Shown here in pieces: positions 2,848-30,616 of a stretch of 37,098 nt of DNA. The stretch covers positions 1 through 37,098 of the IMG/VR virus record IMGVR_UViG_3300037852_000148. The stretch is one strand, 5' to 3'. Positions within the stretch are counted from its first letter, which is position 1; every line of letters starts with the position of its first letter. Both the position numbers and the translations under genes were made by a program. The notes under the pieces are model-generated. The model made no database searches. It was not told the DNA's origin and saw only the letters and a program-made list of their open reading frames with translations. This DNA is from a virus.

Positions 2848-3428
2848 GTTCAAGAAAAGAGATGCATTGGTTTTGGCGTGGCGGTGTTTTTGGTGCGGCA
2901 TTTGGAATTTCGTTTCTCGTTACCGCCGTTGTTGCCGCTATTATCAATCCGCTTCCTTATATTTTTCAAAATGGAACGACGGCGGACGCGACTCAGGTAA
3001 ATGCGGATTTATCTCAAATCGTTTCCAATGTTAATTCAAACGCAGTTCCTATAGTTGGAGGGTCTACAGTTCCCACTGGAGCTGTCGTACCGTTCAATTT
3101 ATCATCCTGTCCATCGGGGTGGTTACCTCTAGATGGTATCTCTGCTACTCCTGACATGAGGGGATATTTTGTTAGGGGTCTTGATACTGGAGGGTCTGTC
3201 GATCCTGGTAGAACACTTGCGACCTTGCAACAAGACCAGTTTCAAAATCATGCTCACGGTGTTGCAGGAGGGACTCTTGGTGGGACAAGTGCAGGGACCT
3301 CGGGAGGCTCAGGAACGAATACGCCTACCGGAACATCTGGTATCATTGTTGGTGGAGCTAGCTCCGGAAACCCAGGGTCCGAAACTCGTCCGAAGAATGT
3401 ATCTCTTCTCTATTGTGTAAAGAGCTGA
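2844..3428 (+). CDS. Phage tail collar-domain protein with hydrophobic N-terminus
   Basis: 194 aa. Residues 12-36 form a hydrophobic helix (WRGGVFGAAFGISFLVTAVV) that looks like an uncleaved membrane or signal segment, unusual for a virion fibre. From about residue 75 there is a tail-collar (microcystin-dependent-type) domain: PxGAVVPF, CPSGWLPLDG, TPDMRGYFVRGLD, DQFQNHAHG and a terminal RPKNVSLLYCVKS, the last being the standard ending of this family. A Gly/Ser/Thr-rich linker (residues 140-180) separates them. ATGA overlap with the hub gene. In tail fibres this fold usually forms the distal trimer or collar; here it probably decorates the short tail. The start is fixed by the overlap. Confidence 0.8.
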   Translation: MSSRKEMHWFWRGGVFGAAFGISFLVTAVVAAIINPLPYIFQNGTTADATQVNADLSQIVSNVNSNAVPIVGGSTVPTGAVVPFNLSSCPSGWLPLDGISATPDMRGYFVRGLDTGGSVDPGRTLATLQQDQFQNHAHGVAGGTLGGTSAGTSGGSGTNTPTGTSGIIVGGASSGNPGSETRPKNVSLLYCVKS

Positions 3429-8435: not shown

Positions 8436-10496
8436 ATGGCAATAGGCGGACCTGCCGGCTTTGGAGCCGGATTTATTGAGGGCTTCTCCAGAAGCCGCCA
8501 ACACGCGAAGTCGCGCGTAACCCAGCAACTCAACGAAGCCTTGCGACTCCAGAAAGAGGATCGTGAGTCGAAAGAGGCGATAGCCAAAGAGGGGCTGGCC
8601 TATGAGAGAGCCAAAGCCGAAGCATCTCTCGCTCAGAGTGAGCTTGCACTAGTCGAGCAGCGCCGTTCTCAGGTCATGGCCGAGCCCGGTAAGCCATTCA
8701 GAGATTCTGCTCTGGAGGGTCATCTTGAAGCCGCCAAGGAGCGCATGGCCGACGCTCATGCGGAACTGCAAGATAGGCAGGGCAAGCTCCAAGACCTGAT
8801 TGAGGACAGAGACGCGAGGGTCAGGGGTGCTATCCAACCTACCAAGACCGGCGGATTTCTTGGCATGGGGCAATCCGAGGTCCCGCCAGAGAAGCGTACG
8901 CCAGAGCAGGTCGCCGCGTATAAGGCGGAAGTCGTCAAGGGCGAGCGCGAACAGGGTGCGGAATTCAACAAAGCGGTTACTCCCGTCGAGCGTGAGATAA
9001 GGCAGGCGCAAGCCAGCGAAAGCCGCGAACGCGGTAATGTTGGCGGTGCTGAGAAAGCTCTTGAGGTCGGGAGGGCCGAGCAAGGCCCGGTAAACGAGGA
9101 AGCCCGTAACACCAAGTTATTTCCGCTTGACGAGCAGTCTGCAAAGCTTCGCGCCAAGCAGCTAGAGTCGCAGTCCGCCATGGCGGCGGCGGCTCAGGAA
9201 ATCCAAGCTCGGCAGCAACAGCAACAGCAATTGCAGGCCACGCCAGGGTATGCCAACGCCATGCGGGGCGGTGCCGCTACCGGTAAAGGCGGTGGCGGCG
9301 GGGGAGGGCTGCTAGGGTCCATCACGGGTAAGGGCGGGGGTAGCGGCTCTCCAGCGCCGCAAGGCCAGCCAGCGGCCGGCGCGACGCCGCCTGGTGGTGT
9401 TCCAACGGTAGGCCAGGCGATCAGCCCAATTTTAGGCAAGGTTGCACAAATGCCGGTAAACCAGGTCGCGCAAGCGGCCAGACAGTTGCTTGGCGGCGCG
9501 ATGGGCGGCGCATCTTTGCCTCGGCCAGGAGGCGCCCCCCTACCTCCACAGCGCCCAGACTTAGGCCAGCAACAATCATTTTCCGGCCCACGCCAACCTC
9601 AGCGCGTCCCACCTCCGTCTGTCGCTATGCAGGGGCAAGGCGGCGGGCTTTTCCCAGAGTTGGTGAAAGCCTATCAGGGTCATGGATGGTCACCACAAGA
9701 GGCTATAAATATTGCCTCGGTTCAGACACGTGGCGAAGGAGGAAAGCTTGGGAGCGGGGGAATGGACTCAGCGACAGGCGGCAGCAACGGAATATCTCAA
9801 TGGTCGGCCGATCGCTGGGCCAGGGGCGTCAATTGGATGAAGGCGAACGGCTATAATCCGCGCAGCGCCGAGGGACAAGCGGCATGGACTACCCAAGAGC
9901 TTAGAAGCACGTACAAGAACGCCAACCCAAACTCTGTTGTATCGCTCGTCAATGATTATGAAAGCCCCCGCAAAGACCTTCGTGCCGGCGAAATAGCAAG
10001 GTCTCAGAGAGCCGCTTCTTCGGCCGGCGCCGGCGGCCCGGTTCAGTCCGGCAATTACAAAGGCCAGGATTACACTTATCAGACTCAGCCTGCTTTAAGC
10101 TCTAATTTACATACCCAAACAAATCAGGAACAGGGGGTAGGGAAAGAGACTTCCACACAGGGAATGAAACAGAAACAAGGCTCGCAAGCTCCACAAGCCC
10201 CTCCGGTTCCAGGGCTCGACGCGCAAAATGAGCCGCCGCCCCCGCCGATCGATGTCAAGCCGTTTGCTGGGAACCCTCAAAATATGCATCAACCTCCACA
10301 AAATATGCAACAACCTACACAAAATATGCAACAAACTCCGGAATCGATGCGGGCCGACAACATGAACCAAGGAGTGCAGGCCGGAGTTCCGATGATTCAC
10401 AGTCCTGATCAGCTCAAGGGAATGAAGCCCGGCTCTTTGTTCCGCGCTCCTGACGGAAGACTCAAGATCGTTCCGCTGATAGAAGCGCAGCAATAA
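8436..10496 (+). CDS. Ejection protein with phage tail lysozyme-like domain
   Basis: 686 aa. Residues 20-260 are charged, Ala/Glu/Gln/Arg-rich coiled coil. A low-complexity Gly/Pro/Gln region follows (265-400, including GKGGGGGGGLL). At about 404-500 sits a tail-lysozyme-like domain: ELVKAYQGHGWSPQEAINIA, TRGEGG with a candidate catalytic Glu, then GGSNGISQWSADRW, the G-I-x-QW-x-x-R motif of that family. The rest is disordered and holds a short tandem QNMxQxP repeat (about 612-635) before a compact GSLFRAPDGRLKIVPL end. Such proteins are ejected with the DNA and locally open peptidoglycan, like T7 gp16. No strong Shine-Dalgarno precedes ATG 8436; AGG lies 11 bases away. Confidence 0.7.
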   Translation: MAIGGPAGFGAGFIEGFSRSRQHAKSRVTQQLNEALRLQKEDRESKEAIAKEGLAYERAKAEASLAQSELALVEQRRSQVMAEPGKPFRDSALEGHLEAAKERMADAHAELQDRQGKLQDLIEDRDARVRGAIQPTKTGGFLGMGQSEVPPEKRTPEQVAAYKAEVVKGEREQGAEFNKAVTPVEREIRQAQASESRERGNVGGAEKALEVGRAEQGPVNEEARNTKLFPLDEQSAKLRAKQLESQSAMAAAAQEIQARQQQQQQLQATPGYANAMRGGAATGKGGGGGGGLLGSITGKGGGSGSPAPQGQPAAGATPPGGVPTVGQAISPILGKVAQMPVNQVAQAARQLLGGAMGGASLPRPGGAPLPPQRPDLGQQQSFSGPRQPQRVPPPSVAMQGQGGGLFPELVKAYQGHGWSPQEAINIASVQTRGEGGKLGSGGMDSATGGSNGISQWSADRWARGVNWMKANGYNPRSAEGQAAWTTQELRSTYKNANPNSVVSLVNDYESPRKDLRAGEIARSQRAASSAGAGGPVQSGNYKGQDYTYQTQPALSSNLHTQTNQEQGVGKETSTQGMKQKQGSQAPQAPPVPGLDAQNEPPPPPIDVKPFAGNPQNMHQPPQNMQQPTQNMQQTPESMRADNMNQGVQAGVPMIHSPDQLKGMKPGSLFRAPDGRLKIVPLIEAQQ

Positions 10497-13400: not shown

Positions 13401-14797
13401 ACTGGCGCGGGGGCCGGGCTTACCGTGATTACCTCGGGCTCCGTACCGGACCGGAGCCAGGGCAAGGCATGTTCCGCAAGATGCTTGAGACGATTCGCGG
13501 AGAAATTTCTCCCGAGGATAGTGAGCTTGTGAACATTTTGGCGCAGGTGAATGCGCCTCAAGCGCGTAGTTCGATCGATCTTTTTTACGGCGATATATCG
13601 GCGGCTCGCTGGGCTGGGCGACGTGGATGGCTCAAGGGATTCAAAAACGGAGTGTATAGGGTCGAGGTCGGCAAAGCCGGGCAGGCGGCCAAGGATTTCG
13701 TCAAAGGAATCCCAGGGGCGCCGCTGTCATCCGCTGGCACTCTCGTCATGGCGCCGTTCCGTGGCATGGCAAAGATCACTTCGGAAATCATGGCCCCGCT
13801 TTTCAGCGAGCTTATTCCGAAAGCGAAGTTCGGCGCATCGATGCAGAAGTTGCAAGATTGGATTGCGGCCAATCCTGGCGCATCAATGGATCAAAAGCGG
13901 ATGGCGGCCGCGAAGATCAGGCAGAATTCCGACAATCTTTTTGGTGAAATGCAGGAAGACAATCAGTTCATGAATCGAACCGTGATGCTAGCGGCTCGCA
14001 TGACGTTCCTTTCTCCATCATGGAATATTGGAACTGCACGCTGGGCTGGCGGCGGACTCAAGGCGACAGCGCAAGCAATCGGCAAAACGGCAATCGGCAA
14101 ATATCGTGAAGCCCCTGGCATCAGCAAGGTAGGCTCGACATGGAATCCGGCAATTGCCACGACGTACGGGGCGATATTGGAAACCGTCATGGCAGGATCG
14201 ATCACGACGTACCTGCTTACAGGCCGAAAGCCAAATGACTTGCGCGATATCGTTGCCCCTCCAAGTGGAGGCGTAAATGAGCGCGGCGAGCCTGACCGGA
14301 TACGGCCGTTTGCTGACGCCTCTTTCATTGCGGACATATCGAAGGGGCTGGGTTACCCTGGTCTCGGCGCTGCCGGGTATGTGCCGCAAGATGTTGGCCC
14401 GCTTGGCGCGCTCAAAGGAAAGCTCAACACGATCCCGTCCATTGCGATTGACGAGCTTATCACGGGACGCGATTACAAGAACAAGCCGATATTCGGCGAT
14501 CATCCAATAGAGCAGGGCATCATGTATGCCTTAAAGAATGCTCTGACGCCAATCTCGTTCGGGGAGAAAGGCGCGGTTGGGGCGCCTGACAAAACCAATA
14601 TCCCATTATGGGCTCGCGTCATCGGCATGGGCGAGGCGGGAATGCAGTTCACCAATCCTCAAGGGTGGAAGGGATTGCGCGCAAGAGACGGGAAGCCAAC
14701 AAGCGTGACGAGCACGCCAGAATATAAAGCTGCTCACCCTCGTAAGCCGAACAAGCCTATGGTTCGGCACGAAGACTCGGCGGCTTACCCACGGTGA
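10496..14797 (+). CDS. Giant multi-domain ejection (internal core) protein, 1433 aa
   Basis: Coupled to the previous gene (TAATG at 10494). Residues 1-40 carry three WWDxF/HPxxAPP-like repeats. Two related modules follow (about 195-341 and 350-540): each starts VAPQEV, contains a strand-helix domain ending YPEAETISGxRI(T/S)G, and closes with QATATGKPAEGG. At DNA level the closing 38 bases are identical. Module 2 is AT-rich, unlike its surroundings. The remaining 850 residues are a helical core resembling the large polyvalent or core proteins of podoviruses (LANRRSAQMNESIEE, FFGPPYHLLTELVE, RMTFLSPSWNIGTARW), with hydrophobic segments near 1215-1235 that could line the ejection channel. The module domain loosely recalls a GNAT fold; that is a weak impression. 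Expected role: DNA translocation across the envelope. Confidence 0.65.
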   Translation: MAWWDSFQDAPPRPGGGWWDKFPDAPKQQAAERNWWDHPKYAPPVAHDRFSQGTPGSGGRPPPRDDQKQLPPYLEGSVEGISRIPRGVMEGARETISGAPERYAAGYGSVDRDAGAFNRVIGAPLAGAYNVVAGSPAGQAAADIGLSGAPLTRGMSNERSARPVVAGHDVDLRVDEGRPRVPESQAGRGVAPQEVRSDVPREGVVLPPKQSILELAESRPETLPYHSSDNPVHLEHLGEEGGTSVFSVKDDYAGDHGVVNASYNPAVKDVRVISMDMRNLDRGMTRAHAESLLSDIKKHYPEAETISGMRITGSRSEMRPNVKMRLPNTQATATGKPAEGGGRIVAPQEVLEEVKGFGPYPYNPAFEQEPFKYRPGEAESARDNRGWSDAYEAELDRNDGRPPAREAGAGGLGPGKVDRSTSLKHIPYSGGDDFENTSLFEINKEGNHIGNIYINHDDPKNLRIDHMESTTAKGHDRLNSLGPSVVKNILLEVRNLYPEAETISGHRISGASRSRLTGEDLKVNLPQRQATATGKPAEGGVEGAELPTSPPYESPRIAGRAPVGNRFPETLFSGEMTPRDRLEAANVFMAESGDYAGAAVAHEGHLRNLIADARSGGGSALSGKGRISGAYVDGIEAELERSIKPTGNRSALEPGSLGAASSPTRPAPAMITEQTGSRPLISQQIGLANRRSAQMNESIEETIKHEFAATPEQRKAYRDYIEKRSTDKSVPKILTPELLAAADLVKSQAGDIRYELERLDPESKQGFIDDYLSHMYKDTPRLREMIGEKARGGSGGGASGHLKQRTIPTYSEAERLGLTPKYDTIGETVQASNKMMNRFIAARDIEDELKAQGFIHEGASGDKVPLGWKRIDSGRFANRPVFAPPNIARDYNRFYKHPDAPWAHTVMEVNNALRGVKFFGPPYHLLTELVETATHDWSSALENIRNAQFGRAAANTSKALTHTGLPANYWRGGRAYRDYLGLRTGPEPGQGMFRKMLETIRGEISPEDSELVNILAQVNAPQARSSIDLFYGDISAARWAGRRGWLKGFKNGVYRVEVGKAGQAAKDFVKGIPGAPLSSAGTLVMAPFRGMAKITSEIMAPLFSELIPKAKFGASMQKLQDWIAANPGASMDQKRMAAAKIRQNSDNLFGEMQEDNQFMNRTVMLAARMTFLSPSWNIGTARWAGGGLKATAQAIGKTAIGKYREAPGISKVGSTWNPAIATTYGAILETVMAGSITTYLLTGRKPNDLRDIVAPPSGGVNERGEPDRIRPFADASFIADISKGLGYPGLGAAGYVPQDVGPLGALKGKLNTIPSIAIDELITGRDYKNKPIFGDHPIEQGIMYALKNALTPISFGEKGAVGAPDKTNIPLWARVIGMGEAGMQFTNPQGWKGLRARDGKPTSVTSTPEYKAAHPRKPNKPMVRHEDSAAYPR
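11054..11081 (+). repeat. 28-bp direct repeat, copy 1 (start of module 1)
   Basis: Matches 11519-11546 at 26 of 28 positions, exactly 465 bases apart, so the frame is kept. It encodes GR(G/I)VAPQEV and marks the beginning of each duplicated module in the 1433-aa protein. Confidence 0.85.
11482..11519 (+). repeat. 38-bp perfect direct repeat, copy A (end of module 1)
   Basis: Identical over 38 bases to 12079-12116, 597 bases downstream and in the same frame. It encodes QATATGKPAEGG. A diverged third copy lies in the primase-helicase gene. Confidence 0.9.
11519..11546 (+). repeat. 28-bp direct repeat, copy 2 (start of module 2)
   Basis: Second copy of the VAPQEV-coding repeat, abutting the 38-bp repeat that closes module 1. 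Confidence 0.85.
12079..12146 (+). repeat. Direct repeat copy B, longer form shared with the primase gene
   Basis: The first 38 bases equal copy A. From 12081 to 12146 it aligns without gaps to 31617-31682 with 55 of 66 identical bases by my count, in the same reading frame, encoding A(T/I)ATGKxAExG...LPTSP. Confidence 0.85.
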
Positions 14798-16089
14798 GAT
14801 TTCTTGTCATAGACCCTCATGGCGATGCCCTCGACGTTGCTCTGCGCGCGCAAGAGCACGACCACGACGTGCGTCTATTTATCCGCGATACCCCTAAAAC
14901 CTGCCACATAGGAACGGGTATGGCGCCAATTATACGGGACTTCACTACGTCGCTCGTTTGGGCGGACCTGATTTTCATGGCGGACAACTCTCTCTACCTC
15001 CGTCAGATCGACTCGTTCCGGGCATTCAGGCCCAAGGCTCTCATCATCGGTCCTACGTGGGAATCCGCACAGTGGGAGCTTGACCGCAGAGTAGGCTTCA
15101 AGACCCTCGAAGATCACGGGATCAACGTTGCTCCCTATCGCGAATTTGATTCCTATGACACCGCCATTTCGTTCGTGAAGAAAGAAGACCGCCGGTTCGT
15201 ATCCAAGCCATTTGGCGACGGTGATAAAGCCATGACGTACGCGGCGAGCGGTCCCGACCCTACAGCCGATATGGTCTACATGCTTACGAAGTGGAAGAAG
15301 AAATTCGGCAAGCCTAAAGACCATTTCATTCTCCAGGATTTCATCGAAGGAATCGAGATGGGATCGGATGGATGGTTTGGTCCAGGCGGGTTTGACCAAG
15401 GGTGGAGCGAGTCGTTTGAATTCAAGAAATTAATGAGCAGCGACTACGGCATGAACACCGGCGAAATGGGATCAGTTTTGCGGTTCACAAAGACCTCTAA
15501 GCTCGCGCGCAAGGTTCTCCAGCCCTTGACAGATCGTCTCGCCAGCATGGGCTATGTTGGGTACATTTCCGTTAATTGTATAATCGACGGAAAAGGAACC
15601 CCCTGGCCCCTCGAATTCACTATGCGGCCCGGCTATCCAACAATCAACATTGAGGCGGCCGTGCACAATACCATGGACCCGGCTGAGCGTCTTTATTCGC
15701 TCGCAAAAGGAGAGGATTGCAAGTCGGCCATCCTTGATCGAGTCGCGCTCGGCGTTGTCATCGCGTTGCCCAGTTTCCCTCATTCACATAGCCTTGCAAA
15801 AGAGATTGATGGAATTCCGATTCACGGTATCACGTCTCGGCTTTGGCCGCATATTCATCCGGCGCAAATTCGTAGCACAAAAGGAAATCTTGAGACGGCG
15901 GGTGATTATGTGATGGTGTGTACAGGATCGTCGCAAACCGTTTCGGATGCTCGACGTATTGCTTACCGGCGAGCCGAGCAAGTTCACATTCCTGGAGGCA
16001 TTGCGGTGCGTGACGACATTGGAGAAAGGCTCTCAAAGCAACTCCCTATTTTGCACGATCAAGGCTATGCGACGGGGATGGTGTATTGA
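14794..16089 (+). CDS. PurD-like ATP-grasp ligase
   Basis: 431 aa from GTG 14794, overlapping the previous stop (GTGA). Residues 1-100 form a Rossmann-like N-domain; the ATP-grasp part follows with RRFVSKPFGDGDKAMTYA (nucleotide-binding Lys, about 136-152), FILQDFIEGIEMGSDGWF (about 183-200) and PLEFTMRPGYPTINIE (about 272-287), close to the PurD metal-binding signature EFNxRxGDPE. PurD joins glycine to phosphoribosylamine; this protein is similar in length (PurD is about 425 aa) but departs in the substrate end, and no other purine gene is present. Ligation of an amino acid to a nucleotide, base or protein is possible. It is the last gene of the ejection block and converges with a leftward operon one base later. 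Confidence 0.75.
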   Translation: MRFLVIDPHGDALDVALRAQEHDHDVRLFIRDTPKTCHIGTGMAPIIRDFTTSLVWADLIFMADNSLYLRQIDSFRAFRPKALIIGPTWESAQWELDRRVGFKTLEDHGINVAPYREFDSYDTAISFVKKEDRRFVSKPFGDGDKAMTYAASGPDPTADMVYMLTKWKKKFGKPKDHFILQDFIEGIEMGSDGWFGPGGFDQGWSESFEFKKLMSSDYGMNTGEMGSVLRFTKTSKLARKVLQPLTDRLASMGYVGYISVNCIIDGKGTPWPLEFTMRPGYPTINIEAAVHNTMDPAERLYSLAKGEDCKSAILDRVALGVVIALPSFPHSHSLAKEIDGIPIHGITSRLWPHIHPAQIRSTKGNLETAGDYVMVCTGSSQTVSDARRIAYRRAEQVHIPGGIAVRDDIGERLSKQLPILHDQGYATGMVY

Positions 16090-16090
16090 A

Positions 16091-16360
16091 TCACTCCGGT
16101 TTCCATGCCGGCGGCTGGTCATATGACCAGGTGACTTTTGGGCATTTCAAATCCAAAGCATCTGACGCCTTGAGAGCCTTGTCGCCGTCCTCGATTGCCT
16201 TTGTGCAGACCTCGGCCATAGAATCGTCTTTGCAGGCTTTCATCATGCGAGAAGTCGCTGCCTGCATCGCCTTGGTGTCTTCGGCAACCAGGCGATCGCA
16301 AGATTTTGCGAAAGCTGGAGAGGAGGACAAGACAATGATTGCCGTTATGGTCTTCAACAT
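16091..16360 (-). CDS. Small secreted protein with four cysteines
   Basis: 89 aa. The N-terminus MLKTITAIIVLSSSPAFA is a clear Sec signal peptide with a cleavage site after AFA. The mature part of about 71 residues is helical, with AMQAATSRMMKACKDD and Cys at about positions 21, 43, 52 and 74, probably two disulfides in the periplasm. Last gene of the leftward operon; its ATG lies within the last codons of the preceding gene. No family recognised. Confidence 0.75.
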   Translation of the reverse strand: MLKTITAIIVLSSSPAFAKSCDRLVAEDTKAMQAATSRMMKACKDDSMAEVCTKAIEDGDKALKASDALDLKCPKVTWSYDQPPAWKPE

Positions 16361-16614
16361 AAGTCCAACTCCGAATCGAGTTTGAGAGCAGCGGACATCA
16401 GCTTGCTTGCAAGCCAGCGTCTAACATGTCGGCGCTGTGCTTGTCCGTAGAGAGGTCGGGGATTCGCCAATCCGTCGTAGAAAATGTTGAACGTGTTGCG
16501 CTCTATGATCTCTCGGGTTTTACGGAACGTTTCAGGCTCATGATAATAGGTGAAACGATTGAGATTTCCCCATTTTGGGGAAACCGCTATAGAACCTCCC
16601 CATTCCTGTGTCAT
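16354..16614 (-). CDS. Leftward operon protein of unknown function
   Basis: I start at ATG 16614, which overlaps the previous stop (TGATG); a GTG two codons upstream is also possible. The 86-aa product has no signal peptide and contains an aromatic N-terminal half (LNRFTYYHEPETFRKTREI) and a basic helix (AQRRHVRRWLASKLMSAAL). It overlaps the next gene by seven bases. Not recognised. Confidence 0.6.
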   Translation of the reverse strand: MTQEWGGSIAVSPKWGNLNRFTYYHEPETFRKTREIIERNTFNIFYDGLANPRPLYGQAQRRHVRRWLASKLMSAALKLDSELDLC

Positions 16615-16895
16615 CAGCACATCGGTCTCCCATCACTTGCAGACATGAGCGCGCCGAGAATCCCGTAGTGGCAACGCGGCAACCCATGAGCCTCTCGGTA
16701 GGCGTTCACCATGGCGTATTGAGACGCGATGTGAAGACCTCCAAGATAGCCTCGCGTGAAGGACTCCCCAACGGCTGGTCCTGCCGGCGACCCGTTGCAG
16801 AAAGTCTGTCCGCTCGCCGTGTAGCAGGAAAAAGATTGGGCGTGCGCTTGAGCCAATCCAAGCGAGAGCATAAAGGCGATTGCGGTCTTTCTCAT
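16614..16895 (-). CDS. Small secreted Cys-containing protein
   Basis: The frame is open further upstream but ATG 16895 has AAGGGA upstream and overlaps the preceding stop (ATGA). The 93-aa product starts with a Sec signal peptide (MRKTAIAFMLSLGLAQAHA, cut after AHA). The mature part begins QSFSCYTASGQTFCNG, continues with GESFTRGYLGGLHIASQY and ends in PMC, so it holds four Cys and is probably periplasmic and disulfide-bonded. It follows the RHH regulator directly. The family is unknown to me; in prophages, secreted small proteins encoded in this way often alter the host surface or exclude other phages. Confidence 0.7.
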   Translation of the reverse strand: MRKTAIAFMLSLGLAQAHAQSFSCYTASGQTFCNGSPAGPAVGESFTRGYLGGLHIASQYAMVNAYREAHGLPRCHYGILGALMSASDGRPMC

Positions 16896-17035
16896 TTGCG
16901 TTTCCCTTCCATACGTTCGGCAATGATCCACCTGATTACGTCTGCAACGGTTGTGCCACGCCGCTCAGCAATCTCTCTGAGATATTCGAGCAGCGGGTCT
17001 GGAATCGCTAGCGTGATGCGAGATGTCCTTGCCAT
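16892..17035 (-). CDS. 47-aa ribbon-helix-helix regulator
   Basis: Not long enough for routine ORF calling but clearly real: MARTSRITLAIPDPLLEYL is an RHH beta strand leading into helix A, then EIAERRGTTVADVIRWII is helix B with the typical G-T-T-V-A-D-V turn, and a basic tail follows. Arc/CopG-type proteins bind palindromes as dimers and usually repress their own promoter. Here a perfect 12-bp palindrome lies one base upstream of the start codon, over the -10. First gene of the leftward operon; ATGA overlap with the secreted-protein gene. Confidence 0.8.
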   Translation of the reverse strand: MARTSRITLAIPDPLLEYLREIAERRGTTVADVIRWIIAERMEGKRK

Positions 17036-17036
17036 G

Positions 17037-17072
17037 ATGGACGTCCATACGCTTCCAAGAGCATCCTGTCAA
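17037..17072 (-). promoter_or_regulatory. Leftward promoter with overlapping palindromic operator
   Basis: Minus-strand TTGACA (17067-17072) and a weaker TATGGA (17044-17049) are 17 bases apart. The palindrome ATGGACGTCCAT (17037-17048) covers the -10 and the transcription start area and ends one base before the RHH start codon. Transcription would start almost at the ATG, suggesting a leaderless or very short leader mRNA, repressed by the RHH protein itself. Confidence 0.6.
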
Positions 17073-17156
17073 TAGTACCTTTTTTGGTTCATGCCGAATA
17101 TTATCACTTGATATAGGGTTGGACCTTGTAAGCTTCTCCAGCCTTGATGGTCCAAA

Positions 17157-17417
17157 ATGGCTTTGACCCTGAATATCACTACGGCTACAGCCCTTAAGTC
17201 TCAGCCTGGCCAAGTTATATCGTTTGCGGTCCTTGTGGCTGGCGCCGCTGGAACCATCAACGATTGCACCACGACGGGCGCGGCCGCCGCCTCCAATGCG
17301 GTCTGTGCCATGCCGGCGGCCGTCACGGCCGGGTTTGTCCCTGTCAACGTGAACACCACGGCCGGGATCGTTGTGGCTCCCGGCGCTGCGCAAGTCGTGG
17401 CGGTCCAGTGGCAATGA
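17157..17417 (+). CDS. Small virion protein, decoration or fibre-associated
   Basis: 86 aa, rich in Ala, Val, Thr and Gly with beta-strand character (LTLNITTATALKSQPGQVIS; GIVVAPGAAQVVAVQWQ) and two Cys. It precedes and overlaps the tail-fibre gene (ATGA at 17414-17417), so it is likely a fibre partner or capsid decoration protein. No named family. Confidence 0.6.
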   Translation: MALTLNITTATALKSQPGQVISFAVLVAGAAGTINDCTTTGAAAASNAVCAMPAAVTAGFVPVNVNTTAGIVVAPGAAQVVAVQWQ

Positions 17418-19195
17418 GAATGGGCTGTTACCTCCTAAGCGTCATCGGGTCTGCAATCATTTCGATGATGGCGGCGGACCCCGCCTTGTGCCAGGGGGCT
17501 GCTCTTCCGGGCAGCTATGTGATGATCTCGCCGGTTGGGGGAGGCAATCTCGCGCCGCGCCCGCTTGTTTCGGCTGATCTATTTCAGGGCGGGTCATGCC
17601 CGAGCGGGCAGTTTTTCCAAAACAACTCCGGCACAATTGCGTGCTCGCCTGCCGGCACCGGCAGCGTTACCAGTGTCGGTCTTACGGTCCCGCCGTTCCT
17701 GACTGTTGGCGGTTCTCCAGTAACGACAAGTGGAACGCTTGCCGTCACGGCGACAAGCGAAGCGCAAAACCTTTTCCTAGCATCTCCAAACGGATCGGCT
17801 GGGCCGATGACGCCTAGGGCTATCTTTCCTCCCGACATAACCACGGCTCTCACCACACCGCCGTCCATCGGGGCCACGACACCTAACTCCGGAAATTTCA
17901 CGACGCTTGCGGATAACGCTGAGACGATCACGGCACTGACAAACACCAATGCCACGTTGACTATGGCCGGACTCAGCGGGTCGATAGCCGGAACCTCAAT
18001 CATAATGCAGAAGGTTGCCGGCGCGCAGTTCAATGCAATCACGGGGGAGGTTGGGTCGAGCGTTCGATGGAACATGCTTATAGGCGACAACTCTACGGAA
18101 AGCGGCTCGAACGCTGGCAGCAATTTTTCTCTGGATCGATATTCCGATGCCTCGGCCTTCATCGACTCCGTGATCATAGCGAATCGAAAGACCGGTCAAA
18201 TCATCATGGGCAATTCGTCAGGATGGTTGACGGCTCTGACAGGCCTGTCGGCAACCGAAGTTCTTGCAAACGTTGATGCGCTCTCCCGCATTGGCGGAAT
18301 GGGTCTTCTTGGTGCGTCACGGTCCAGCGACACGGCGATTGTCGGCGGCAATGGAACGTTTGGCGTCGGTGCGTTCGGGATCAACGATAACGGCTCCGTC
18401 GCGGAAACGGTTCATGGCATCTATTCGGAAGGTCGACAGAATTCCACCATTGCCACGGCAACCATTGGGCTTGAGATTTCGATTCTCAGCTATAACACCC
18501 TGGCTGCAATCAATCCTTACACCATGATCGCAACCGGCCAGACCATGGGGCTATGGATCGGCGCCGGTCGGCCTGATGTGCCGCTGGCGAACAAGAATGT
18601 CTCAGCCGCAATCGGCATTATCACGGCTGGGTCAAGCGTTCTTTTCAATGAAGGAATTATTTTTGGAACCGCATCGATTGTTTCCACTGGCATCGGGGCA
18701 ATCGCCATCGACCTGCCTATCAACTACGCTATTTCACAGCGCAACCCAACGAATGCCGCGACGCAATCGTTCATTCAGTTCAACGAAGCAAGCGGAAACG
18801 ATGTCCTTGGGCTAGTCTTCACGGGAGGCTTTGCCTTCATTCAAGACGTGACGACAACCACAAACCCGATGCAGGTGTCCAAGATCGGGGTGCAATCTCC
18901 AGCCTTTGGCGGCAGCGGCGCGGCCCCGACAAACACAGGGACATGCGCGATAAACACAATCACGCCCAGCAACACAATTGGCTCGTTCAAATATAACGGA
19001 GCCTGCTCATCTCCAGGTAGTGTCATATTGAATTTTGCTGAGACTGCACCAAATGGATGGACGTGCAAATTCAATAATATAACTCAAGCCGTGACGTACA
19101 ACCAGAATCAGCTTAACACCACGGCGGCCGGATATGCGACAACGCCTTCCGCAAATGCTTCTGATCTAGTCAGCTACCACTGTTTCTTCTATTGA
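17414..19195 (+). CDS. Tail fibre / receptor-binding protein with N-terminal hydrophobic leader
   Basis: Start fixed at ATG 17414 by the ATGA overlap. The 593-aa product opens with MRMGCYLLSVIGSAIISMM and ALCQG, which looks like a secretion signal. Residues 65-115 hold the very common fibre module GSVTSVGLTVPPFLTVGG...TTSGTLAVTA...NLFLASPNG. A long beta-rich shaft with Gly/Ser/Asn repeats follows. The C-terminal 80 residues are the widespread fibre tip with GTCAINTITPSNTIGSFKYN, FAETAPNGWTCKF and a final SYHCFFY. It probably contacts the host receptor. The second adsorption cluster lies at 2844-6702, so this phage encodes fibres in two places. Confidence 0.75.
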   Translation: MRMGCYLLSVIGSAIISMMAADPALCQGAALPGSYVMISPVGGGNLAPRPLVSADLFQGGSCPSGQFFQNNSGTIACSPAGTGSVTSVGLTVPPFLTVGGSPVTTSGTLAVTATSEAQNLFLASPNGSAGPMTPRAIFPPDITTALTTPPSIGATTPNSGNFTTLADNAETITALTNTNATLTMAGLSGSIAGTSIIMQKVAGAQFNAITGEVGSSVRWNMLIGDNSTESGSNAGSNFSLDRYSDASAFIDSVIIANRKTGQIIMGNSSGWLTALTGLSATEVLANVDALSRIGGMGLLGASRSSDTAIVGGNGTFGVGAFGINDNGSVAETVHGIYSEGRQNSTIATATIGLEISILSYNTLAAINPYTMIATGQTMGLWIGAGRPDVPLANKNVSAAIGIITAGSSVLFNEGIIFGTASIVSTGIGAIAIDLPINYAISQRNPTNAATQSFIQFNEASGNDVLGLVFTGGFAFIQDVTTTTNPMQVSKIGVQSPAFGGSGAAPTNTGTCAINTITPSNTIGSFKYNGACSSPGSVILNFAETAPNGWTCKFNNITQAVTYNQNQLNTTAAGYATTPSANASDLVSYHCFFY

Positions 19196-19207: not shown

Positions 19208-19594
19208 ATGCTAAAATGGGTTTCTATATGTTTCATGCTTGGTGTGTCGTGTCCTGCTTTGGCTCTCGATTGGTCTCAGCCGATCTTTGACGAGCAAGGA
19301 AAGACGATCCCAGATTGCCCGTTGGCCGGCAATGTTCCAGAGCCGGGTTGCTCCAAGTTTTTGACTCTCGGTTCCATGACGGCGCGCGCGCTCTTTGCGC
19401 CTGACCCGCAAGGAACTTCCACTCTTCCTGAGCAAAAGGCGCAAGCCGGAAAACTCGGGCTCGAAATCATCGAACACCCGGACATGACGCCAACCCCCGA
19501 TCAGTTGAAAATGGCTCGTGATGCGATCGGCAAAATGGGCTCACCACTCGCCGTCGCGCGTGGTTGGGAAATCTTGGACAAGGCGGTTAAATGA
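19208..19594 (+). CDS. Secreted protein of unknown function in fibre-lysis operon
   Basis: 128 aa with signal peptide MLKWVSICFMLGVSCPALA. The mature part has DWSQPIFDEQGKTIPDCPLAG, a second Cys in PGCSKFLTLGS and a helical C-terminus (PTPDQLKMARDAIGKMG). I have an impression of similar proteins next to fibre genes in alphaproteobacterial phages, but no function. GTCAGG lies five bases before the ATG. Coupled to the next gene by ATGA. Confidence 0.65.
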   Translation: MLKWVSICFMLGVSCPALALDWSQPIFDEQGKTIPDCPLAGNVPEPGCSKFLTLGSMTARALFAPDPQGTSTLPEQKAQAGKLGLEIIEHPDMTPTPDQLKMARDAIGKMGSPLAVARGWEILDKAVK

Positions 19595-20242: not shown

Positions 20243-20560
20243 ATGTTTGGTACAAACTACAAGACTACAATGGGAGGGATAGGAGCGATCCTTACGGCTT
20301 TAGGAAGCGCCGCTCATGGCTTTAGTACCGGGGATATGCCCGAGGTCTATGCCAGCATACCGTCTCTTGTTACTGGGATTGGCTTGCTCATGGCAAAAGA
20401 CAACAATGTTACCGGCGGCTCTGTCGGCCAGACTGACGAGGCAAAGATAAGGGTTATAGCTCCCGAGGTTATTACTAATTCTGTTGTCCCTTTAAATCAG
20501 GGTCCCCCGTCACGCGAAGACAGAGCACCGGGGTTGCCGTTAAAAAGGCCAAACTTTTGA
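20243..20560 (+). CDS. Holin-like small membrane protein
   Basis: 105 aa. Two hydrophobic stretches (about residues 9-26, TTMGGIGAILTALGSAAHGF, and 37-52, ASIPSLVTGIGLLMAK) are followed by the DNNVTGG motif, a pattern common in small phage membrane proteins placed before the endolysin. The C-terminal half is polar and Pro-rich. AGGAAAG lies nine bases before the ATG, and the endolysin gene starts in its stop (TTGA). The holin role is from context. Confidence 0.6.
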   Translation: MFGTNYKTTMGGIGAILTALGSAAHGFSTGDMPEVYASIPSLVTGIGLLMAKDNNVTGGSVGQTDEAKIRVIAPEVITNSVVPLNQGPPSREDRAPGLPLKRPNF

Positions 20561-21339
20561 CCACGCTTGCCGAACGCCAAGCAGAGTTTTGCTCATATTT
20601 CTCACCGACTTATCCGATGCGGGCAGCGGCGTCGATCGGCGGTAATGCGACGCAAGAGAACCTGTGTCAGCCCGTCACGGCCGGCGCCAAGGACCATGGG
20701 TCTGACGGTACGCTGCAATGGCGAGCCGAGCGCCTAACCGGCCCTGACGGTCTACAGCCATGGTGTGCGGCTCAAGGCATACCGTGGGATACACTTAAGT
20801 CTCAAGCTCTCTTCACTATGCACGAGCTTGAGCAATCACAATATGCTACGCTCAAGGGAGATTTACGGCTTGGCTTGAAATCTCTTGAGACGATGACCCT
20901 CAATTTCTGTGATGCGTTCGAGCGGCCGAGCGCCGCCGGTCGAGAACCCGACAAGCGAATCGCCTACGCTCGTGACTGCCTTGCGATCTTGATGCGCGAT
21001 GCGCCGTCACCGTTACCTACAGCCGTTACGGGCCGCCCCAGCACGGCGCCGATCGCCGTTCCACCGATACCCTCCATGTCCTCTCTAGGAGCCTGCCAGA
21101 TGCCTATCGAATTGATCCTTCAACTTGTTGCCCCCTTGGCCGAAAATCTCGTCAGCGGACTTCTCAAGGGCGTCTTGACCCATGTGCAGGCAAACGGCCT
21201 GCCGGCATCGCCGGCCCTCCCGGCGGCGGTCCACCCTGTCCCGGCGCCAGCGGCTCCCGGACTCACGGCGGCCGATTTCGTCGCAATTGCAAAAATGATC
21301 GAGGATGCGATTTCGAAGCTACAAACAGCAAAGCAATGA
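20557..21339 (+). CDS. Endolysin with phage tail lysozyme-type domain
   Basis: 260 aa from TTG 20557, which overlaps the previous stop. Residues 1-150 match the tail-lysozyme family: SIGGNATQENLCQP with the candidate catalytic Glu34 and GSDGTLQWRAERL with the QW-x-x-R signature. The second part (from about 182) is separate: a hydrophobic amphipathic helix (MPIELILQLVAPLAENLVSGLL), a Pro/Ala linker and a terminal helix. An AGGAG eight bases before the in-frame ATG 21100 could start a separate 79-aa product. No signal peptide, so release needs the holin. It cleaves peptidoglycan at lysis. Confidence 0.75.
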   Translation: MTTLAERQAEFCSYFSPTYPMRAAASIGGNATQENLCQPVTAGAKDHGSDGTLQWRAERLTGPDGLQPWCAAQGIPWDTLKSQALFTMHELEQSQYATLKGDLRLGLKSLETMTLNFCDAFERPSAAGREPDKRIAYARDCLAILMRDAPSPLPTAVTGRPSTAPIAVPPIPSMSSLGACQMPIELILQLVAPLAENLVSGLLKGVLTHVQANGLPASPALPAAVHPVPAPAAPGLTAADFVAIAKMIEDAISKLQTAKQ

Positions 21340-21689
21340 ATCTATTGGAGCACGCTCGCGCCGTTCGCCGAAAATGGACCGAGGACCGAATTGCCAGGCT
21401 TGGCTTTCTTGTTGGGTTGGGCTGGGATGCTCAGAGGGTTGCGGACGATCCTGTTATAGCGTCCAATCGCAACAATGTATTTAGGCAGGTTCAAAGGTTT
21501 GGTTTAGGATTTCGTGCTGCCGCAAACGCAATAGCGGAGGAATTGCCGGAGAAGGTAAATTCTTGTTTAGATAAAGCAGCCTTGAAACGAGGAATTACTA
21601 GAGAAGCGATGATAAAATCATTGCTTTTTGAAATATCTTCCGACACTACCCTACTAGACAATATCTTAGATGATGGGATTAACACATGA
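21336..21689 (+). CDS. GcrA-like DNA-binding protein
   Basis: 117 aa. Residues 12-62 follow the GcrA N-terminal helix-turn-helix: WTEDRIARLGFLVGLGWDAQRVADD, then SNRNNVFRQVQRFGLGFR, equivalent to W-x-x-(E/D)R-(V/I)...G-x-S-A-x-Q-I-A...(R/S)NAVIGKxxRLGL in GcrA. Cellular GcrA is an alphaproteobacterial regulator that works with CcrM methylation at GANTC sites. The C-terminal half is helical and ends DNILDDGIN and lacks the RNA-polymerase-contact region I would expect in full GcrA. ATGA overlap with the endolysin gene. It may control late genes or redirect host cell-cycle transcription. Confidence 0.65.
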   Translation: MNLLEHARAVRRKWTEDRIARLGFLVGLGWDAQRVADDPVIASNRNNVFRQVQRFGLGFRAAANAIAEELPEKVNSCLDKAALKRGITREAMIKSLLFEISSDTTLLDNILDDGINT

Positions 21690-22572: not shown

Positions 22573-22754
22573 CCGGCATTTGGGTCCGTTTCGGGCACGA
22601 TGCGTTCTTTTGGTGAGGCAGTTTTGCTACAAGGGAACTCCGCAAAACGCCTCTCCAATTCGTCAACGCGCTTGTTGACCGCGTCTATGCGTCGATGAAG
22701 GAAACTGTTTTTGTTTTCGTCTAACGTGTCAAACCATCTTACTTGATCGGCCAC
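22563..22754 (-). CDS. 63-aa coiled-coil protein after int
   Basis: GTG 22754 with AAGGGAG upstream, starting inside the end of the integrase gene (26-base overlap). The product has a helical core NSFLHRRIDAVNKRVDELERRF and a polar tail. It is the last gene of the leftward early operon. Small coiled-coil proteins follow int in other phages; function unknown. Confidence 0.5.
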   Translation of the reverse strand: MADQVRWFDTLDENKNSFLHRRIDAVNKRVDELERRFAEFPCSKTASPKERIVPETDPNAGKI

Positions 22755-23766
22755 TTATGGCTCCCTTCAACAGATCGATCTCCAGCGCATCGGCCGCGTC
22801 CCGCAAGAAGTCTGGTGCGAACTTGGCATAAACGCGGGAGGTCACCCGGCTATCGGAATGCCCGAGCATTGCCGCGATCCGATCCATGCTCACGCCGCGC
22901 TCCGCCATGAGGCAGGCAGCGGTGTGGCGCAGCACATTCGCCGTCACCCAAGGTAGGCCACAACTCCGCCCGGCGCTCGCCAGGCTTCGTTTGACACTCT
23001 TGACCGGCCTACCTGCCCATTCGATCACAAAGGGCGTCAGCGCGCCCGCGCGGGCTTCCTGTAGGGCAGCGGCGGCCGTGCGGTTCATTGGCACCGTGGG
23101 CCTGCCTTTGTGCGTCCTGGCGAGAGTTGGGTCATGCAGGTCAATGGTTTTGCCATCGAAGTCCACACGGACCCACTCCAGACTCAAGATCGCGCCAGAC
23201 CGGGCGCCAGTCGTCATGGCTAAAATCACAAAAAGCCGAACATGGGGCATATGACAAGCAGCTAGGAAACGTGCAGCCTCGTCTCTCGTTAGCCTCAAGT
23301 CTCTCGGCGGCGGGATCGGCGGCCGGTAAATCGCCGGGGCTTTGACGATCAGGTTTCGCTTCGCGGCCCATTTCAGCGCCGACCTGAGCCGGCCGAGTTC
23401 GGTCCAGATCGTTCCATCCTTACGATTATCTTGACGCCGTTTCGCCATGTAACAAATGAACTCACACTCTGACAATCCATCCGCGACAAGCGATCCAAAG
23501 AACGGAATAATGGCCTTTGCTTCATAGCCCATAGTAATAAACGAAGGTCGGCCCACAAGTGTCTCACGATATCCATTCCAGCAAAACTCCACAGTGACAG
23601 GATAGGGACGGTTGGCGATCTCGAATGCGGAGGCGAAGGATTTTAGCGTTTGCTCGGCAACACCACGACATTGGGTGCGTAGTGCTTTGCGGCGCTGGAC
23701 ACCGTTTTCACGCCACTCGGCGTACATCCAGCCACGATATTTGACGACACGGAATTTTGATGGCAT
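22729..23766 (-). CDS. int: Tyrosine-type site-specific integrase
   Basis: 345 aa. An N-terminal arm-binding part (1-70) and a core-binding SAM-like part (75-145) precede the catalytic domain. Visible catalytic residues: Arg189 (TTGARSGAI), Lys220 (HKGRP), Arg280 in VLRHTAACL, His303 in LGHSDSRVTS and Tyr313 in RVYAKF. The first His of the H-x-x-R box is Asn277 (NVLR), where related integrases have PHVLRHT. It recombines attP with the tRNA-Thr attB. The 5' end overlaps the excisionase gene by 124 bases, a lambda-like int/xis overlap that balances integration and excision. Confidence 0.9.
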   Translation of the reverse strand: MPSKFRVVKYRGWMYAEWRENGVQRRKALRTQCRGVAEQTLKSFASAFEIANRPYPVTVEFCWNGYRETLVGRPSFITMGYEAKAIIPFFGSLVADGLSECEFICYMAKRRQDNRKDGTIWTELGRLRSALKWAAKRNLIVKAPAIYRPPIPPPRDLRLTRDEAARFLAACHMPHVRLFVILAMTTGARSGAILSLEWVRVDFDGKTIDLHDPTLARTHKGRPTVPMNRTAAAALQEARAGALTPFVIEWAGRPVKSVKRSLASAGRSCGLPWVTANVLRHTAACLMAERGVSMDRIAAMLGHSDSRVTSRVYAKFAPDFLRDAADALEIDLLKGAISGRSSKMV

Positions 23767-25207: not shown

Positions 25208-25576
25208 TCAAAAAGGAATGTCGTCATTGATGGTTTCAGCGGTAGTCTTTGGAGGCTTGTTGCGCGGCACTTGTTTGACACGGATCGCCGCAACCGTGTC
25301 ACCTTGAAACTCAACCATCGCCTCGAACAGGGCGATTTGTTCGCCGGTCCAGTTGTCGGTATCGTCTCCGAATAGTTCGGCAATTTTCTTGGAGTTGGTC
25401 TTGTTCAATACCAACCCCTTGTCCTTGCCATCAAAATAGAGGACAGGAAGGACTTTTTTGTCACCTCCAAACCCGATGTCCTCCATTAATACGCTCTTCA
25501 TAGTGAGAGACACTATCCGCCCGTCGAGGTCGGCCGCGCTCAGATATTTAGTTGGAAATGCTGCGCTGATTTTCAT
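25208..25576 (-). CDS. Recombination-module protein, SSB-like tail
   Basis: 122 aa, beta-rich (DLDGRIVSLTMKSVLMEDIG; KVLPVLYFDGKDKGLVLNKTN), followed by a helix with WTGEQIALFEAMVEF and a C-terminal INDDIPF. The acidic DD-I-P-F tip is like that of single-stranded DNA binding proteins. It is encoded directly after the exonuclease with ATGA overlap, so it may bind ssDNA or assist recombination. This family is usually annotated hypothetical. Confidence 0.65.
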   Translation of the reverse strand: MKISAAFPTKYLSAADLDGRIVSLTMKSVLMEDIGFGGDKKVLPVLYFDGKDKGLVLNKTNSKKIAELFGDDTDNWTGEQIALFEAMVEFQGDTVAAIRVKQVPRNKPPKTTAETINDDIPF

Positions 25577-26247
25577 AGGGATGCTCCAGATTTTTTCAGT
25601 GCAGTCATCAAGGCTTCTTGATGACCATGTTCAAGAATGTCGATTTTATGCGCTAGCTCGTCAAGGAAATCTCTCGTGCATTTTTCGAGGTATGCGATTT
25701 TGTCTTCGTCACGCCAAACTCGCTTGATGAAAAGCCGCATCCGCTCTGGGACTCTAGGATCATAAGACACGTAGTCGCACCATTGGCGGCCGGTACAGGC
25801 GAGCCCGAATTGAATTTGCTTCACATATTTGTCTGGGACTTCCGGCGGTCTTCCGAGCAGAGTTTCGACATGTGTTGATGTATTTGGACATTTGATTTGT
25901 AGTTCGCCGTCGTCGCCTATCAGACCATCCGGGCTACATCCGGCCATTTCGATAGACGGATGATCCACAAAGCCGACACAATCAACGATACAGCCCTCGC
26001 GAGTCTCATACTCTTTGCGGGCTTCGGGCTCCGTGAATCTCCCCCATTCCATTGGGCCGCTCATGTATGAGTCAGTTGGAATTCCCGTGAGCCGTTCACA
26101 AAGTAGATCAGACATATAGTTGGCGCGCGACGCTCCCCAACCAGTTTTGGTCTTCGCGGTCAAGTCATGCATACGAGACGCAGTCGCTTTCCCGCATCGA
26201 TAAACGCGCCATTCCATAGTTCCTTGGATTAGATCGATGGCGTTCAT
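25573..26247 (-). CDS. Lambda-exonuclease / YqaJ-type recombination nuclease
   Basis: 224 aa, close to lambda Exo (226 aa). N-terminus QGTMEWRVYRCGKATASR is the usual W-x-x-x-R-x-G-x-(V/A)TAS motif; the active-site region has AGCSPDGLIG (Asp107) and GELQIKCPNTSTH (Lys119). Where lambda Exo has Glu two before this Lys, here it is Gln117, with Glu115 two residues earlier. The enzyme degrades the 5' strand of DNA ends for annealing recombination. No clear Beta/RecT/Erf annealing protein is seen next to it; neighbours of 92 and 122 aa could fill that role. Confidence 0.8.
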   Translation of the reverse strand: MNAIDLIQGTMEWRVYRCGKATASRMHDLTAKTKTGWGASRANYMSDLLCERLTGIPTDSYMSGPMEWGRFTEPEARKEYETREGCIVDCVGFVDHPSIEMAGCSPDGLIGDDGELQIKCPNTSTHVETLLGRPPEVPDKYVKQIQFGLACTGRQWCDYVSYDPRVPERMRLFIKRVWRDEDKIAYLEKCTRDFLDELAHKIDILEHGHQEALMTALKKSGASL

Positions 26248-26620: not shown

Positions 26621-26830
26621 TCAGTCACATACCCAATGCATCCGGCCGTGCCAGTTGGTCCAGTAGCAACCGCCGTCGTCATAATCGCCGCCGCCCCAAT
26701 GGCCGCCGTGATGATGGCTCCAGCCGCCTCCCTTCCAGCCTCCTCCACCCTTTCCGCCCTTGGCATCAGCTTGCGTGAATGAAGACATGGCCGCAACGAT
26801 CAGTGCAAAAAGAAATATACGTAGTCTCAT
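26621..26830 (-). CDS. Secreted Gly/His/Trp-rich protein
   Basis: 69 aa: signal peptide MRLRIFLFALIVAAMSSFTQADA, then a low-complexity mature part of 46 residues with KGGKGGGGWKGGG, WSHHHGGHWGGG, DYDDGG and a CYWTNWHGRMHWVC end. The His cluster and two Cys suggest metal binding or a disulfide loop in the periplasm. AAGGGAAC precedes the ATG. It stands apart from its neighbours by 98 and 73 bases of noncoding DNA (a hairpin GAAGCG/CGCTTC at about 26862-26878), unlike the otherwise gap-free operon, so it may be an inserted unit. Confidence 0.65.
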   Translation of the reverse strand: MRLRIFLFALIVAAMSSFTQADAKGGKGGGGWKGGGWSHHHGGHWGGGDYDDGGCYWTNWHGRMHWVCD

Positions 26831-28730: not shown

Positions 28731-29054
28731 CTATTTGTTTGATTTTATGAACGCTTCGGCCATGTCCTGAAAACGCTTTTGGTCTTGCGGACTCGCGTCC
28801 CTCATAATGTCGTCAATCGATCGTGGCGCGTTCGGCGGTCCGGACAATTCTTGAGGTGTCACGCGCAGCGCAACGCAGTATCGTCCAAGCCATTCGTCAT
28901 TGAGCTTTTGTCGGCCCTTACCGGGACCCTTTAATTGATATCGTTCAAGCTTGCTGATCGTGGCTTTTGTGGTTTTCATTTTTTCCGCAAGCGCATCTTG
29001 AGTTAGCCTTCGAAAGGCCCGCCATGCTTTTAAATACCAACGCTGGACATGCAT
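28731..29054 (-). CDS. Lysogeny repressor, XRE-type HTH
   Basis: I start at ATG 29054; the frame continues upstream through the operators but that part is unlikely to be coding. The 107-aa product has an XRE-type HTH at about residues 12-50 (FRRLTQDALAEKMKTTKATISKLER), an extension YQLKGPGKGRQKLNDEW and LRVTPQEL, then a helical tail (PQDQKRFQDMAEAF). There is no LexA-like autoprotease domain, so induction is not by self-cleavage. A possible -10 (TACTAA on the minus strand, 29062-29067) would place transcription start at the ATG, a leaderless message like lambda cI. Operators lie on both sides. Confidence 0.75.
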   Translation of the reverse strand: MHVQRWYLKAWRAFRRLTQDALAEKMKTTKATISKLERYQLKGPGKGRQKLNDEWLGRYCVALRVTPQELSGPPNAPRSIDDIMRDASPQDQKRFQDMAEAFIKSNK

Positions 29055-29074
29055 CCTTAAATTAGTAACCGTTC

Positions 29075-29144
29075 CGGAAACCAAAGTCGTGACCCAAACT
29101 GGAAACTTTTTTCTTGACGAGAAGTGTCCAATATGGAAACATGG
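29075..29144. promoter_or_regulatory. Right operator cluster (three GGAAAC sites) and rightward promoter region
   Basis: GGAAAC occurs at 29076-29081 (in TTCCGGAAACCA), 29101-29106 (AACTGGAAACTT) and 29135-29140 (ATATGGAAACAT). The last is within the 18-bp repeat 29127-29144. A rightward -35 TTGACG (29114-29119) has a poor -10 (AAACAT) 17 bases on, overlapping the third operator. Three graded sites between divergent repressor and Cro-like genes mirror a lambda right operator. Confidence 0.65.
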
Positions 29145-29149
29145 CCTGT

Positions 29150-29371
29150 ATGGCTCATCCGATGAAGGCATATCGCGAGCGTCACGGTCTAACGCTCGCG
29201 CAGCTTGGCGATTTCCTTGGCGTCACGAAGCCGGCTGTCTTCAAATGGGAGCGCGGGTTAGGGCCGAGCCCAGCAATGGCAATCGAGATCGAGAAACTGA
29301 CGGGCGGTGAGCTGCCGCGTTGGGAGCTTCGCCCTGATCTGTGGTCCGCGCCGCAAGAGGTTGCTGAATGA
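29150..29371 (+). CDS. Cro-like HTH protein
   Basis: Start uncertain: ATG 29150 or 29162, neither with a ribosome site, so the message may be leaderless. The product of 69-73 aa is a YdaS/Cro-type HTH: MKAYRERHGLTLAQLGDFLGV, then TKPAVFKWERG and PSPAMAIEIEKLTGGELPRWELRPDLW, the usual end of small Cro proteins with R-x-E-L-R-P-D-L. It is divergent from the repressor and first in the rightward operon, so it should switch off the repressor and both early promoters. Confidence 0.75.
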   Translation: MAHPMKAYRERHGLTLAQLGDFLGVTKPAVFKWERGLGPSPAMAIEIEKLTGGELPRWELRPDLWSAPQEVAE

Positions 29372-29898: not shown

Positions 29899-30155
29899 CG
29901 GCTCTCAAAAAGGCTATCGATCTCACTACGTGCAATCGCTTGCTTACGTTGGTAAGCATGGGAAAAGCCAGGATCATCAAAGAGCACGGCGGCCCCGATG
30001 GGGTCTCTTTTATCGTACGGTCTTCCTCTGGAACCATGCTCGGAATTGCGGGCAAAAGATACCAATATCTATTCGAGTCTGAATTAGAGCGACAATCATC
30101 AAACGATGGTCTTTTCACGGACATGCCGCAAACCACAAGGCCGGTATCACCATGA
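29895..30155 (+). CDS. 86-aa early protein
   Basis: ATGA overlap. Mixed helix/strand with TTCNRLLTLVSMGKARIIKEHG and VRSSSGTMLGIAGKRYQYLF. Not recognised. Immediately precedes the resolvase gene (4-base overlap). Confidence 0.55.
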   Translation: MTALKKAIDLTTCNRLLTLVSMGKARIIKEHGGPDGVSFIVRSSSGTMLGIAGKRYQYLFESELERQSSNDGLFTDMPQTTRPVSP

Positions 30156-30616
30156 TCGTGCTTGGAATCGACATTGGAGTTTCCGGCGCAATCGCGGTTT
30201 TAAAACCGGCTCTTGTTGAAGTTCACGACATGCCGGTGCTTAAAGACGGTCCGGCCGGCCGCCGCGCAATCAATGCACCGCTCCTATCCTCGATCATTTT
30301 TGCCAGCCATGCAGATTGGGCCTTCGTTGAGTACGTTGGCGCGCGCCCTGGGGAGGGTGCTGTAGGGGCTTTCTCATTCGGGCGGGCACGCGGTGTCATC
30401 GAAGGCGTTTTGGCCGCTGCCGGAGTTCCCTGCACGTTTCTGACACCTCCAAGTTGGAAGCGCGCAATTGGGTTGCCGGCGGGCCGTGACAAGGATGCAT
30501 CGCGGGGCGAAGCCATCAGGAGATGGCCTAACCATGCTGCGCTCTTTGCGCGAAAATGCGATGACGGGCGCGCCGAGGCGTGTTTGATCGCGGTTGCGGG
30601 CATCATGAAATCATGA
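30152..30616 (+). CDS. RuvC-like Holliday junction resolvase
   Basis: 154 aa, near the usual size. RNase H-fold signature residues: Asp7 in LGIDIGVSGA, Glu60 in AFVEYVGARPGEGA, and Asp138 and Glu142 in DDGRAEACLIA at the end. PPSWKRAIGLPAGRDKDASR is the family's substrate-binding segment. Phage RuvC proteins resolve recombination or replication branches before packaging. It sits in the rightward replication operon, between small genes, with ATGA overlaps. Confidence 0.8.
   Translation: MIVLGIDIGVSGAIAVLKPALVEVHDMPVLKDGPAGRRAINAPLLSSIIFASHADWAFVEYVGARPGEGAVGAFSFGRARGVIEGVLAAAGVPCTFLTPPSWKRAIGLPAGRDKDASRGEAIRRWPNHAALFARKCDDGRAEACLIAVAGIMKS

Follow-up and report, generated by a model that had tools for sequence, protein, structure and literature searches.

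A candidate RHH-controlled accessory operon read against the late genes of a temperate tailed phage

Between two plus-strand late genes of the phage analysed here there is a gap of 1067 bp, which is exactly filled by four small ORFs on the minus strand. This raises the question whether these ORFs are genuine genes and, if so, how they are controlled and what their products might do. We consider it about an even chance (a probability of roughly 0.5) that they form a real, self-contained and autorepressed accessory operon of the moron-like kind, by which a temperate phage exports small disulfide proteins to the envelope of its host.

The window, i.e. the whole stretch of 37,098 bases that was analysed, corresponds to an entire IMG/VR record. 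As end repeats are absent, it may represent a fragment only. The phage is temperate and tailed, and its main landmarks are listed in Table 1 together with the features of the operon. The host is probably an alphaproteobacterium, since the nearest integrase relatives found belong to Mesorhizobium, Phyllobacterium, Limibaculum, Pseudovibrio and one unclassified alphaproteobacterium. Near relatives of the whole phage were not detected in the collections searched, and queries with a 1433-aa protein and the terminase returned distant terminases only. A small plus-strand gene adjoining the lysozyme gene (21336-21689) shows a weak match (18.9 bits, cut-off 26.9) to GcrA, a cell-cycle regulator of alphaproteobacteria.

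Table 1. Features of the operon, its control region and the surrounding phage genome (positions in the window)
Feature	Position	Strand	Evidence or remark
47-aa RHH regulator, operon gene 1	16892..17035	-	Pfam RHH_1, PHROG
93-aa protein, signal-peptide-like N-terminus	16614..16895	-	hydropathy, Cys, export screen, Shine-Dalgarno site
86-aa protein without export signal	16354..16614	-	overlaps both neighbours, Shine-Dalgarno site
89-aa protein, signal-peptide-like N-terminus	16091..16360	-	hydropathy, Cys, export screen, structure model
Perfect palindrome ATGGACGTCCAT, candidate RHH operator	17037..17048	.	exact; over candidate -10
Candidate promoter TTGACA-17 nt-TATGGA	17044..17072	-	predicted transcript start about at the start codon
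Inverted pair TTGGACC / GGTCCAA	17119..17155	.	inverted-repeat search; halves at 17119/17150
16-nt perfect palindrome CTGGTCATATGACCAG, then GTGACTTTTG	16115..16130	+	resembles, weakly, a terminator for rightward transcription into the operon
Tail collar fibre	2844-3428		
Tail-lysozyme domains	8436-10496		weak
Tail-lysozyme domains	20557-21339		strong
Integrase	22729-23766		
RecE-like exonuclease	25573-26247		
Cro/CI-type HTH regulator	28731-29171		
RuvC-like resolvase	30152-30616		
Primase/helicase	31391-33211		
Terminase	34412-36388		

The original prediction described four overlapping leftward ORFs, headed by the regulator and read against the surrounding late genes, and this layout is found exactly as described. 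The upstream flank on the plus strand is a PurD-like ATP-grasp gene that ends at 16089, and the next plus-strand late gene starts at 17157. All four ORFs begin with ATG, and in operon order the three junctions show overlaps of 4, 1 and 7 nt. The PurD-like protein itself (14794-16089, 431 aa) lies amid virion genes and reaches 95 bits with TIGR00877 (cut-off 288); a full-length copy with 42% identity is present in the spring-water phage record MW202796.1.

It could be argued that such ORFs arise by chance opposite a non-coding or an unrecognised rightward sequence, given that three of the four have no homologues and that some rightward frames are open as well. However, when a stretch of 1.3 kb was shuffled with dinucleotides preserved, chains of at least four ORFs (ATG start, at least 40 aa, overlap of at most 8 nt or gap of at most 3 nt) occurred in only 4 of 2000 shuffles. 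The codon scores of the four minus-strand frames are 0.09-0.21 bits per codon each, compared to 0.20 +/- 0.09 for the known genes of the phage and -0.06 +/- 0.11 for wrong frames, whereas the longest rightward alternative, an ORF of 155 aa opposite the operon, scores -0.10 and lacks a Shine-Dalgarno site. Overall, codon usage favours the minus-strand frames. The picture is less clear where a rightward ORF of 99 aa lies under the 89-aa gene, since the former scores 0.14 and the latter 0.21, so that codon usage alone does not settle this end of the operon. Compared with random sites, Shine-Dalgarno pairing ranks in the best 5% for the 86-aa and 89-aa genes and in about the best 10% for the 93-aa gene, while the RHH gene shows little pairing. 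As these sites coincide with an RHH domain and two export signals, an origin of the ORFs by chance appears to be the least probable of the explanations considered here. No Rfam RNA was detected in the operon region, and its GC content of about 0.53 equals that of the flanks, so that the odd composition which is typical of morons, if not required of them, is not seen.

The identity of the first gene product as an RHH regulator holds. It exceeds the curated cut-off of the Pfam family RHH_1 (26.0 bits, cut-off 20.5), with residues 6-41 aligned to positions 1-36 of the 39 positions of the profile, and it also matches an Arc-like repressor in PHROG (3.8e-4). A DNA-pattern scan of IMG/VR for the RHH motif pointed to three contigs, but none of the frames that matched encodes a small RHH protein. 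In the early operon of the phage, a second small protein of 59 aa (30867-31046, plus strand) looks RHH-like by eye and has no Pfam or PHROG match.

The two predicted secreted cysteine proteins likewise bear closer inspection. Both the 93-aa and the 89-aa protein combine a basic start with a hydrophobic stretch, whose mean hydropathy is about 2.2, and with cleavage sites of the A-x-A type, and each contains four cysteines. These are located at positions 24, 33, 75 and 93 of the former, with probable cleavage after AHA or HAQ, and at positions 21, 43, 52 and 73 of the latter, with probable cleavage after AFA. Our export screen, which is a rough, home-made one and not SignalP, assigned such N-termini to 9 of 510 start sites in the window, two of which are those of the 93-aa and the 89-aa gene. 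No such signal is seen in the 86-aa protein, which contains a single cysteine. None of the three proteins has a credible family match in Pfam, PHROG, NCBIfam or PADLOC or a credible match in sequence searches of the PDB; a match of the 89-aa protein to phrog_27183 (E 0.007) is weak and was not relied on. The structure model of the 89-aa protein is helical and of low confidence (mean pLDDT 58), and fold searches with the single-sequence AlphaFold models, which are poor and of low confidence, gave no match at E<=0.001.

Signal-like N-termini are also found elsewhere in this phage, which seems to be rich in export signals. They occur in a 593-aa late protein (17408-19195, plus strand, start at 17414) that appears tail-fibre-like by eye and in the next late protein of 128 aa (19208-19594, plus strand), and are odd for virion-type proteins. 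In the early region, a Gly/His-rich protein of 69 aa (26621-26830, minus strand) has a strong export-type N-terminus and no PHROG match.

Two further explanations can be weighed against these properties. The small proteins might be accessory factors of lysis or release, which weaken the envelope or set the timing of lysis, instead of serving the conversion of a lysogen. This would fit their predicted envelope destination and the fact that the operon belongs to the late region and precedes the strong tail-lysozyme-type gene (Table 1) by a few kb. However, the operon is transcribed against the late genes and has its own regulator, and the small proteins show no similarity to spanins, holins or endolysins in Pfam or PHROG, which makes this role unlikely. 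It is even less likely that the operon is a type II toxin-antitoxin system, in which the RHH protein would be the antitoxin and one of its small neighbours the toxin. The RHH gene does head an operon made up of small genes and its product resembles the BrnA antitoxin weakly, but the score of 21.1 bits falls well short of the cut-off for BrnA, which is 60. Moreover, such systems comprise an antitoxin with a toxin-binding tail and a recognised toxin. Here, the 47-aa protein ends at its RHH domain and leaves no tail to bind a toxin, no toxin family was matched in Pfam, NCBIfam or PADLOC, and the product of the next gene is predicted to be exported, i.e. to be moved away from its supposed antitoxin.

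The control region has been described as a promoter with a -10 element covered by a palindrome that stops one base short of the start codon of the RHH gene. The palindrome ATGGACGTCCAT is exact, a single base (17036) separates it from the ATG, and it overlies five of the six bases of the candidate -10. The -35 element TTGACA (17067-17072) is perfect, whereas the -10 element TATGGA (17044-17049) is poor with three of six consensus bases, and a standard promoter scan did not report this combination. Since the predicted transcript start lies about at the ATG and the Shine-Dalgarno pairing is poor, the RHH protein may be translated from a leaderless message. The palindrome alone is weak evidence for an operator, because by a simple count about nine perfect 12-nt palindromes are expected per 37 kb. 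However, its half-site TGGAC recurs in the inverted pair upstream, which ends one base ahead of the point where the divergent late gene starts (17157). Counting both strands, the window contains 69 copies of TGGAC, and the only cluster of four sites within 121 bp is the gap between the two divergent genes (about 17034-17158). This cluster is moderate evidence, as about 0.2 further sites are expected per such gap and the motif was taken from the palindrome, with the count made afterwards. The arrangement is suggestive of several candidate RHH sites serving both divergent genes, so that the RHH protein may control both sides, and the operator position together with the extra half-sites makes autoregulation plausible.

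One could even assume that control of the divergent late gene (17157 onward) is the main task of the RHH protein, that leftward transcription provides an antisense RNA against late read-through and that the small proteins are secondary. An inverted TGGAC pair directly before the start at 17157 and a palindrome at the RHH start, giving four half-sites in one gap, would be in line with this. Yet the cluster was seen post hoc, the gap contains no good rightward promoter, and three more coding genes with Shine-Dalgarno sites and two export signals would be left unexplained; we regard this possibility as improbable, to the same extent as a role in lysis. No clear leftward terminator was found on the minus strand after the last operon gene, and sites like the terminator-like palindrome facing rightward transcripts are about as frequent in shuffled sequences.

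The search for the same gene set elsewhere, which had been proposed as a check on the original prediction, did not recover it. For the 93-aa, 86-aa and 89-aa proteins, no credible relatives were found by tblastn in the phage collection, none in searches of sets of 367-398 alphaproteobacterial genomes each (two sets for the 93-aa protein), and none by pattern scans of IMG/VR, which reach close relatives only; plasmids yielded no credible tblastn relative of the 93-aa protein. Three borderline matches were discarded, two as long unrelated proteins (L016, L017) and one as an overlapping frame (L015). Absence of the set together with frameshifts in relatives had been named as evidence against the operon; the absence is what we found, with no relatives to show frameshifts. 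It is no proof of uniqueness, because of the short reach of the pattern scans and because the genome sets are samples. A literature search at the level of titles and abstracts yielded nothing evident on RHH-controlled exported phage operons.

In contrast to the operon genes, the late gene at 17157 has relatives. Its product (17157-17417, plus strand) is a small late protein with a GTINDC motif and no family name, and homologs with 50-58% identity are present in four otherwise unlike IMG/VR viral contigs (L018-L021). In all four, the homolog directly follows an ORF on the same strand, with gaps of 3 to 95 bases (mechanical ORF ends), and the leftward operon is absent in front of it. This supports, but does not prove, that the operon was inserted, since the nearby genes are otherwise not homologous to those of the window and the contigs do not provide a clean "empty site".

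Taken together, the interpretation as an accessory operon is based on an ORF chain that is rare by chance, on codon and Shine-Dalgarno signals, on an RHH domain above the cut-off, on two export-type N-termini and on the operator-like cluster in the 121-bp gap. It is further based on the presence of an integrase with alphaproteobacterial relatives, a Cro/CI-type HTH regulator and a RecE-like exonuclease, and on the four contigs without the operon. The lack of relatives of three genes, the poor -10, the lack of a clear leftward terminator, the GC content shared with the neighbours and the low-confidence models without a fold match count against it. Placed against the late genes, the operon would likely be transcribed independently of them. 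An RHH dimer might bind the palindrome over the -10 and the start codon and thereby repress its own operon, and it possibly also touches the divergent late gene via the upstream TGGAC pair. The overlaps and Shine-Dalgarno sites suggest that the three downstream genes are probably translated by coupling. Judging by their N-termini and cysteines, the 93-aa and 89-aa proteins would use the Sec route of export and acquire disulfides in the periplasm, where their most likely effect would be a change in the envelope of the lysogen or of the infected cell, for instance in superinfection exclusion or protection.

It is tempting to go further and to propose that alphaproteobacterial phages share a new family of operons under RHH control, with two exported disulfide proteins remodelling the lysogen envelope (exclusion or receptor masking) and a repressor that also gates the divergent late genes, but this extended scenario is improbable. 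At present, the operon is a single example. If it is real and expressed in lysogens, it would provide two phage proteins of the periplasm that resemble none in the libraries searched, together with a minimal repressor, which would be useful for understanding how the surface of alphaproteobacterial cells is altered by temperate phages.

The RHH protein resembles CopG- and Arc-type repressors in that it stands alone, is about the size of CopG or Arc, matches the Pfam family and has a candidate operator at its own promoter, but it is only weakly similar to any named repressor. The core GGACGTCC of the candidate operator resembles, by eye, a MetJ box. With operons such as BrnTA, RelBE and VapBC, the operon shares an RHH gene in first position of a small overlapping gene set, but it differs by the missing toxin-binding tail and toxin family and by two partners that look exported. 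In plan, the operon resembles morons or lysogenic-conversion genes, of which bor and lom of phage lambda are examples, since accessory genes for small envelope-directed products are placed between late genes. It is set apart from them by its four genes, which overlap and include a dedicated RHH regulator, by having no sequence relative and by the lack of a clear terminator and of a GC difference. We do not claim strict membership, since the promoter has a poor -10, a terminator was not found, the composition is not unusual and expression is only predicted. Nevertheless, moron or lysogenic-conversion cassettes usually look like this, with a few leftward genes for envelope-directed products amid late genes that run rightward, and the earlier view that the operon differs from every standard phage module is an overstatement. 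The feature is ordinary in kind, and its novelty lies in the orphan proteins and not in the type of module.
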